Positions 1,367-3,862 of a stretch of DNA of 64,000 nucleotides are shown in pieces. Position 1 is the stretch's first letter; every line of letters starts with the position of its first letter. The translations under genes were made by a program, and so were the position numbers. The notes beneath the pieces are model-generated. The model ran no database searches and was not told the origin of the DNA. It saw only the letters and a program-made list of their open reading frames with translations. This stretch comes from Methanococcoides burtonii DSM 6242 (GTDB taxonomy: Archaea > Halobacteriota > Methanosarcinia > Methanosarcinales > Methanosarcinaceae), in NCBI RefSeq assembly GCF_000013725.1, contig NC_007955.1, positions 1,333,579 to 1,397,578 of the forward strand, read 5' to 3'.

Positions 1367-3487
1367 ATGAGTGAACTACCATGGGAAAATAAAAAAGGAA
1401 ATGCAAATACCTCTAATGAGCATTCGCCTGAACCCAACCTACCTTGGGAATCTGAAAAGAAGAACGACATATCTGTTGATGTGGACTCTGAAATCGCCCC
1501 GGATATTTTTGCAAATGCCATCAAACCCTCTGAAGCAAAAAATAGTCCAGATAACAAACCGGAAATAACCGTACATCCGGCATTTATTCCAAAGATAACA
1601 TCTGATCCTATCGATAAAGATGAAAATATAACCATGGTCAAGCCCTTTGAAAACGATAATGTCCACATAAATCAAGTAGAGCGGACTGTATCGAATATAG
1701 CAGTCATTGATAGAATTCAAAAAACTAGCCAAAAGGATGATAAAAAAGCATCTTTACCATTATTTGAACCAGACTTTCCTGACAACGATATACCCCCATT
1801 GGTTGAAAATAATAATGATGAAGCTATGTTCCCATCAATTAATGAAGATGAATTTACAGTAGCTGAAGAGCCTGTGTTCCCATCAATTAATGAAGATGAA
1901 TTTACAGCAACTGAGGAACCTGTGTTCCCATCAATTAATGAATTTGAATTTACAGCAACTGAAGAACCTGTGTTCCCATCAATTAATGAAGATGAATTTA
2001 CAGCAACTGAGGAACCTGTTTTCCCATCAATTAATGAAACTGAATTTACAGCAACTGAGAAACCTGTGTTCCCACCAATTAATGAAGCTGAATTTACAGC
2101 AACTCGCGAATCCACATTGCCACCGATCGCTAAAGCTGCTCAAGAAGCATCAAAATCAATACCAAATAAAAAAGGGAAAGGATTCCTGGCTTCAATAACA
2201 GATGCATTGAAAAGGATCGCTCAAAAGAAAAAATTAATCGACAGAATGGAAGAATTCCAACCAATTGCACCTGAATATACAGATCAGGATAAAGAATCCC
2301 CAGCAGTATCAGAACAAAATCATAAGGGCATAAGTTCTGAAAACAAAGCTATTCCCCCTATTGATATAAGTGAAAATGTTAATTTGGACGATATTCGAAC
2401 AGTAGTACCAATCGAGAATGCGATAATCATTGAGAAAGAAGAGATCATTGAAAAAGTGGAAAGCTCACCCCTAACTCTTTCTATAGAAGCAATGGATGAA
2501 ATAAAAAAAGAGCTTGCCGATTCAAAACGATCTCAAGAATCTCTTTATACGAACATTGGCACCCTTACCGGAAATATTGGAGAGCTGGAACAATCACTAA
2601 CCGTTATCAAAAATGATAGTGAAAACACCAATTCCAGCATCAATGCCAGAATCGAAGAATCTACGAATCATATTGCTAAAATCGAAAAAAGAATCAGTGA
2701 ATTAGAAGATACTCTGGAAAATATTCACTCCGATAATAGCGAACTTCAGACCGGACTTGCATCCATTGAAGAAAACATTGCTGAACTTACAAGCTCAAAT
2801 GCAATGATATTCTCCCATATACAGAAAATAACAGAATTCGGTAATTCAAGATCTGCAGAGATATTTGAAACGAACGATCGCATCGATAAAATTGATGAGT
2901 CACTGACACTACTTACCCAGATACAAGACGAATCGCAAAAGAACATACACGAATTAAGATCTGTAGCTTCCGACATAATCAGAAGCTTAGAAAAAGCACA
3001 CAATACGAACAAAGAGTTCAAAGCTGAGACCGACGAACGTGGTGAACTTTTTAAGAATGAACTGATATCCCTAACTGAATTTGTAGAGAAAGAATTTAAA
3101 GCCATTGGAGCCAGAAGCTACAAAAGTCACGGTGAGAATGTTCATTTGAATAATATAATTAAAAATTCCACAAATATGAAACTCTGTATGGAATGGTTAG
3201 AATTCCTTATGGAGCTTGTGGGATGTAATCATCTTTCAGATATCCTGTCCTTCTATGAAGAGCTGGGATGGATAAATGAAGACGTGCGTGTGGAACTTAT
3301 CAGGTATGCAGAAGGTATCGATTACTATATTGAAAAATCTGATTGGAAGCTTCCCCCTGATGACCATGTAAAATCCATCTGGTTCATTGAACAGCTTGCA
3401 GGCCTTAAAGTCGATAAGAACAGGCTTTCGATCATAGAGAAAGACATCAAGAAAGTAAAAATGGGTACAGAGATATATGGAATCTGA
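1367..3487 (+). CDS. orphan FlaD/E-domain coiled-coil protein
   Basis: This 706-residue protein has four visible parts. Residues 1-35 hold two copies of an LPWE motif (ELPWENKK and NLPWESEKK). Residues about 155-250 are six 16-residue acidic repeats of the form FPSINEDEFTATEEPV. Residues about 370-570 are a long heptad-rich coiled coil. The last about 110 residues contain WLEFLMELVG followed by EELGWINEDVRVELIRYAEG, the pattern of the archaellum FlaD/FlaE C-terminal domain. In archaella FlaD/E proteins link the motor and chemotaxis input at the cytoplasmic face. No other archaellum gene is present here, so this is an orphan relative and much larger than usual FlaD/E. A decayed pilin-like gene follows. 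Domain call is by eye; the function is open. Confidence 0.8.
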   Translation: MSELPWENKKGNANTSNEHSPEPNLPWESEKKNDISVDVDSEIAPDIFANAIKPSEAKNSPDNKPEITVHPAFIPKITSDPIDKDENITMVKPFENDNVHINQVERTVSNIAVIDRIQKTSQKDDKKASLPLFEPDFPDNDIPPLVENNNDEAMFPSINEDEFTVAEEPVFPSINEDEFTATEEPVFPSINEFEFTATEEPVFPSINEDEFTATEEPVFPSINETEFTATEKPVFPPINEAEFTATRESTLPPIAKAAQEASKSIPNKKGKGFLASITDALKRIAQKKKLIDRMEEFQPIAPEYTDQDKESPAVSEQNHKGISSENKAIPPIDISENVNLDDIRTVVPIENAIIIEKEEIIEKVESSPLTLSIEAMDEIKKELADSKRSQESLYTNIGTLTGNIGELEQSLTVIKNDSENTNSSINARIEESTNHIAKIEKRISELEDTLENIHSDNSELQTGLASIEENIAELTSSNAMIFSHIQKITEFGNSRSAEIFETNDRIDKIDESLTLLTQIQDESQKNIHELRSVASDIIRSLEKAHNTNKEFKAETDERGELFKNELISLTEFVEKEFKAIGARSYKSHGENVHLNNIIKNSTNMKLCMEWLEFLMELVGCNHLSDILSFYEELGWINEDVRVELIRYAEGIDYYIEKSDWKLPPDDHVKSIWFIEQLAGLKVDKNRLSIIEKDIKKVKMGTEIYGI
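1829..2116 (+). repeat. six in-frame 48 bp tandem repeats
   Basis: Exactly six 48-base units, all in frame, encode a 16-residue acidic repeat. Units 1-4 are nearly identical in DNA. Units 5 and 6 carry E-to-K or R changes and FPPINEA in place of FPSINED, so the array erodes toward its 3' end. A seventh partial echo (LPPIAKAA) follows. Such arrays expand and contract by slippage, so repeat number may vary between strains. Confidence 0.95.
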
Positions 3488-3562
3488 TCAACCGAGCACC
3501 AAAGATCATATTGGATAGATCCAGGTAAATAAAAACGTATCCAACATTCAAATCGTAAAAAT

Positions 3563-3862
3563 ATGAAAACGGACAATGACCAGATAACTATTGATTATCT
3601 GGTTGCAATTACAATATCTTGTTTGCTGCCTTTTTTGTTTTCCAATACACGTCTGCTCCTTTCACCCCATTCCAATCAATTCAGATGAAGTCACATTATA
3701 GCAGATCGCGTTGCAACCTCGGTTACAGAAATAGAATTGACTTCTGGAGATATCAATACTCCAAATCTTGTCGATCTGACACAACATTATCTGAAAATGA
3801 TCACAAAGGATAGAGTTATCCCTTATTTGCATGTACATGAAATGATCTGCATGTTACAATAA
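3563..3862 (+). pseudogene. type IV pilin-like gene with three -1 frameshifts
   Basis: Reading from ATG 3563 gives MKTDNDQITIDYLVAITIS, a short charged leader followed by a hydrophobic segment like archaeal pilin-like proteins. The sense then continues in the next frame from about 3619 (LFAAFFVFQYTSAPFTPFQS), then the third frame from about 3678 (NSDEVTL), and finally returns to the first frame at about 3698 (ADRVATSVTEIELTSGD) until TAA at 3860. Each change is the same single-base loss, so restoring three bases rebuilds one ORF of about 100 residues. The pattern fits gene decay. Similar proteins with QITIDYLVG-type signal segments occur in methanogens and haloarchaea, but I assign no exact family. 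Confidence 0.7.

Follow-up and report, generated by a model that had tools for sequence, protein, structure and literature searches.

The ArlC, ArlD and ArlE proteins form a cytosolic ring in other archaea, in which contact between ArlCE and ArlD, ArlH and CheF binding, and a polar cap have also been described (PMC8978795, PMC9126983). The polar cap has been proposed as the anchor of the archaellum and, as far as the account in PMC8978795 goes, its connection to the motor is not resolved. FlaC/D/E genes are given as numbering one to three per genome (PMC4858521), and FlaD is reported to be required for archaellation in Haloferax (PMC6509185). In ArlCE (FlaCE), a FlaC_arch domain (PF05377) is combined with an Arch_fla_DE domain (PF04659).

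A long protein of this family is encoded in the window, a 64,000-nucleotide stretch of the Methanococcoides burtonii DSM 6242 genome (2,575,032 bases in all). The original prediction, made from the sequence of the window, described an orphan FlaD/E protein with a short linear motif at one end and the FlaD/E domain at the other. The observation is confirmed, and its interpretation finds partial support. The ring family is already known, but the protein's standing as a family-wide second paralogue with a conserved tip is the new frame.

Domain layout and the second D/E paralogue

The open reading frame at 1367-3487 (forward strand, as are all features below unless stated) lies 3' of the gene for A-type ATP synthase subunit D (347-967) and was confirmed as real. 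It encodes a long FlaD/E (ArlC/D/E-family) protein of 706 residues, an identification that rests on the reading frame, a profile match and a D/E-domain tree. Arch_fla_DE matches residues 590-679 (3134-3403) with an E value of 5.2e-26 and 90.9 bits, compared with a curated Pfam cut-off of 21, as is expected of archaellum C/D/E ring proteins. When the D/E part was modelled alone, the best of five models was of fair quality, with a mean pLDDT of 78; neither the domain by sequence nor the model by fold found a match in the PDB. The FlaC_arch profile reaches 17.9 bits in the window's protein, under its cut-off of 27.8, and matches 12 of 14 long orthologues (best E value 1.6e-9). Alignment puts the diverged FlaC-like stretch (residues 436-474; 2672-2788) at the same place as the profile match, and the matches in the orthologues are in line with an ancestor that carried both C and D/E domains.

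An AlphaFold prediction of the full protein, built on a 14-sequence alignment, has residues 1 to about 270 disordered, followed by an isolated helix at 272-296, further disorder, a continuous coiled-coil helix at 374-580 (2486-3106) and five short helices. The coil, predicted with high confidence over most of its length, has about 207 residues, or about 31 nm at 0.15 nm per residue. The isolated helix (2180-2254) is conserved and basic, and was amphipathic by hydrophobic moment in most of the sequences in which it was located. Matches to SMC and other coiled-coil profiles were ascribed to coil composition. A promoter scan with a bacterial model returned sites no more numerous than in shuffles. 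The 706 residues, the long coiled coil and the C-terminal FlaD/E domain were all as originally predicted, as was the lack of an adjoining archaellum operon.

The genome has one further D/E match, at 1647942, 311 kb from the window's gene. The protein encoded there, 435 residues long, includes a clear FlaC domain (E value 7.7e-21), and its gene heads arlF-G-H-I-J. The long gene thus lies outside the arl operon; a place within that operon is usual for the ring proteins and does not define them. One long and one short D/E form recur as a pair across the Methanosarcinaceae. In the D/E-domain tree the long forms make a clade (support 98/99), as do the short forms (97/84), and the two are joined at 87/73; haloarchaeal ArlD and ArlCE fall outside this group. 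Although it is built on few columns and many of its forks are weak, the tree shows the long form to be a second paralogue within the Methanosarcinaceae, with modest support for a sister relation to the ArlCE of the operon. The term orphan calls for qualification: the gene is a family-wide second paralogue kept with the archaellum, and two genomes have a copy among archaellin genes.

ArlCE, a protein of the archaellum cytosolic ring, is the nearest relative of the long form in the tree. The two have in common a C-terminal D/E domain, a long coil and an N-proximal basic amphipathic stretch. Unlike ArlCE, the long form begins with a disordered extension that ranges from tens to hundreds of residues and bears a PW[ED] tip; its FlaC stretch is diverged, and its gene is not part of the arl operon. 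Haloarchaeal ArlD (FlaD) is likewise a second D/E protein per genome, and the long form could be this lineage's ArlD, moved elsewhere and working as the haloarchaeal protein does, with the long arm as a passive spacer. The tendency of haloarchaeal genomes to have two D/E genes fits such a relocation, but the long form stands apart from ArlD in the D/E tree, rather than grouping with it as an orthologue would. Additionally, the haloarchaeal proteins are mostly short (about 160-210 residues) and have a different start (NPRxYD), and in the long form conservation is seen in the tip but not in the arm. Relocation of ArlD is regarded as improbable, although the long form may stand in for ArlD functionally.

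Three further observations concern D/E loci elsewhere. Haloarchaeal ArlD-type proteins (L175, L176, L182, L184, L189) often have a conserved NPRxYDxxELR-like start, possibly a docking tip of their own. One long D/E gene (L060) lies between two copies of the same 438-residue open reading frame on the other strand, as though placed between a pair of insertion sequences. At a further locus (L198; G000:C1:326000-345900), another archaellum operon, which includes two archaellin genes, precedes a chemotaxis locus containing CheW, CheF and CheA-type genes; the operon's C/D/E-like protein of 254 residues matches no Pfam family.

The N-terminal tip and the arm

The two predicted LPWE motifs lie at residues 4-7 (1376-1387), within the conserved start MSELPWENKK, and at residues 25-28 (1439-1450), 21 residues after the first. 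Apart from the two tryptophans of these motifs, every tryptophan of the protein lies within its last 116 residues. The suggestion that LPWE be sought in other methanogens proved fruitful: [LFIV]PW[ED] occurs within the first 45 residues of 32 of 39 complete long orthologues, a set from which four proteins cut off by the end of a contig, one split gene and three repeats were left out. When each protein was shuffled at constant composition, the motif fell there in at most 0.1% of cases, and it is thus above chance. Residues E3, P5, W6, K9 and K10 are near-invariant across 14 long sequences, and in 28 of the 39 proteins no tryptophan other than those of the motif precedes the last 116 residues. 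A second motif follows exactly 21 residues after the first in seven of the 39 (four from Methanococcoides, two from genus g6 and one from g12), in three genera and with differing linkers. The design of a short motif at one end and FlaD/E at the other is supported, and the N-terminal motif is conserved across genera.

A stricter DNA pattern for the gene start matched 12 times in 60 genomes, each time at the start of a long D/E gene, compared with no matches for its reversed control. The looser [LF]PW[ED] occurs at 32 places in the M. burtonii genome, as against 43 for the reversed pattern; among the 30 of these 32 that were inspected, only this gene's two lie near the N-terminus of a plausible long open reading frame. 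One protein from another locus (L139), which ends in DLPWE near a pilus ATPase, was considered as another bearer of the tip; it appears nuclease-like by eye, and the match was taken as chance. The motif is missing or altered in seven of the 39 proteins (L035, L049, L051, L052, L055, L063 and L070), where the variants are LPWG, LAWG, SPWG, LPLK, LPLE and LSWE, with one motif out of frame. At L055, near 11140, the start MSELPWEKKK lies in a different frame from the remainder of the gene, beside a run of A, presumably through sequencing error or slippage. Downstream of the tip, a short conserved block, PDIFAN (residues 45-50; 1499-1516), reads PDILAN in most orthologues, and its P45 is invariant in 14 sequences. 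No report of the LPWE motif or of the long D/E paralogue of the Methanosarcinaceae was found in a literature search of open-licence papers.

The arm between the tip and the helix shows low conservation among the orthologues. In the window's gene it contains six 48-bp repeats (1816-2104; 6.0 copies, 91% matches), the sole array found by TRF, which encode the predicted acidic unit of 16 residues. TRF found no such repeat in the other Methanococcoides orthologues examined, and the repeats that other lineages carry at a comparable position are unrelated to it; the long proteins of Methanolobus, for example, carry NPF-type 22- and 25-mer repeats in the arm. The acidic repeat is therefore a peculiarity of this one strain. 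The free arm sequence and the differing repeats, together with a conserved tip, fit a spacer that may vary in sequence and a tip that may not.

Retention with the archaellum and the neighboring pilin operon

In 44 genomes of the family with a completeness of 90% or more, the long form occurs in 28 of 29 with full-length ArlJ compared with one of 15 without; the genomes are related, so these fractions overstate the number of independent events, and one (G044) was classed by length alone. Presence of the gene follows that of the archaellum with two exceptions. G013 has ArlJ and the short D/E form alone, while G040 has an intact long gene beside pilin genes, a remnant of ArlJ and no archaellins. 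The converse of G040 is seen in G008, a Methanohalophilus-type genome that keeps the pilin operon, has lost the D/E gene, lacks archaellins and has a remnant of ArlJ. In G006 and G020, the copy among archaellin genes is an extra long one beside a second short D/E gene. Decay of the archaellum within genus g8, with ArlJ fragments and no archaellins, is seen in G008 (L167), G040 (L165) and G055, and in this genus the D/E and pilin genes met differing fates. Among Methanohalophilus-type genomes, compared to judge whether the gene decays in G040, its dN/dS is 0.45 for the pair G022-G040 compared with 0.26 for two other pairs; the AtpD control for G022-G040 is also raised (0.36).

The long gene can be a neighbor of a pilin operon. 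A DUF7287 gene is next on the same strand at 15 of 47 loci (14 of 44 without three repeats), in six genera, and G040 has the same order in addition to the loci counted. DUF7287 is followed by DUF7288, 7261, 7266 and 7289; the families were assigned from one locus (L055), where the DUF7261 match is under the cut-off. The operon encodes pilin-like proteins, which share the locus with the long D/E gene and have no homology to it. In two Methanolobus-type genomes the six-gene operon is tandemly doubled (L168, L169).

In the window, the operon is reduced to a deletion scar (3536-3820). A broken DUF7287 pilin gene (3536-3775; tblastn E value about 1e-20) continues into the end of the last DUF7289 pilin gene (3716-3820), and the scar ends 60 bases before a histidine-kinase gene on the opposite strand. 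The first and last genes of a six-gene operon are thus fused at a site where the operon is intact in other Methanococcoides. The genome's sole DUF7288 match belongs to a diverged, second-type pilin set at 1560085. The D/E gene beside the scar is intact, with a dN/dS of 0.07-0.09 in its D/E part against two relatives, which indicates that the protein does more than serve those pilins.

The long D/E protein might nevertheless form the cytoplasmic base of a type IV pilus encoded by this operon, and not belong to the archaellum. Its position before DUF7287 in six genera, the scar directly downstream in the window, and the gene and pilins of G040 in the absence of an archaellum all speak for such a role. 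However, the gene has outlasted the adjoining pilin set here and was lost in G008 where the pilins persist, so that it is not kept and lost together with them. Moreover, the pilin genes sit away from the long gene in two Methanolobus-type genomes inspected, and retention of the gene tracks ArlJ. A pilus base is therefore considered unlikely, although a historical or partial link to the pilin operon is likely. The pilus base of the original prediction thus finds an echo in the adjoining operons and the scar, but is countered by a gene that is kept after the pilin deletion and usually missing where the archaellum has been lost.

An archaellum-type domain encoded beside pilin genes in six genera could also point to a shared link, with the D/E end on the archaellum motor and the PW[ED] end on a pilus assembly site, such that swimming and attachment would be placed together. 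This is the least probable of the alternatives, as the motif has outlasted the adjoining pilin operon here, no other gene start in the 60 genomes carries it, and no pilus partner was identified.

A proposed docking tip on the archaellum motor

The long form is most readily explained, at a probability of about 0.6, as a protein of the archaellum cytosolic ring, a second ArlC/D/E-type protein specific to the Methanosarcinaceae that carries a flexible tether and a conserved docking tip. The D/E homology, the diverged FlaC-like coil, the paralogy with ArlCE, the retention with ArlJ, the conserved tip and the helix are observed. Ring membership, the docking partner and the membrane contact are inferred. 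An operon-encoded ArlCE was probably duplicated, and the copy then acquired a long disordered stretch at its N-terminus. The D/E domain and coil would join the cytosolic ring around ArlH and ArlI, the basic helix would contact the membrane or another part of the motor, and the disordered arm would extend outward, where one or two PW[ED] motifs could dock on a partner. This partner is perhaps a polar organizer or cap, and docking would anchor or position the motor. The motif-and-domain design behind the original idea of a tether is upheld, and the tether itself is conjecture, as no partner for the motif was identified.

The chemosensory array is probably not the partner. Seven of 24 genomes lack CheW genes. 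The long form is present in five of the seven, and PW[ED] is kept in four of these (FPWD or IPWD in G003, G022 and G033; also G040), whereas G051 has SPWG. Retention of the tip in genomes that lack CheW suggests a partner other than the array. CheF was also considered as a general docking partner and set aside; the Pfam CheF profile matched in one of 14 genomes, a count that could miss a diverged CheF. It is conceivable, as a tentative extension of the ring-protein reading, that the motor is held on a long flexible leash whose PW[ED] tip docks on a chemotaxis-independent scaffold of the cell pole or of a pilus that places the archaellum. If so, the PW[ED] motif would give direct access to the partner responsible for placing the archaellum. 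For the question of how the archaellum motor is held and placed, the ten-residue tip of this ring paralogue may offer a concrete bait for that partner.
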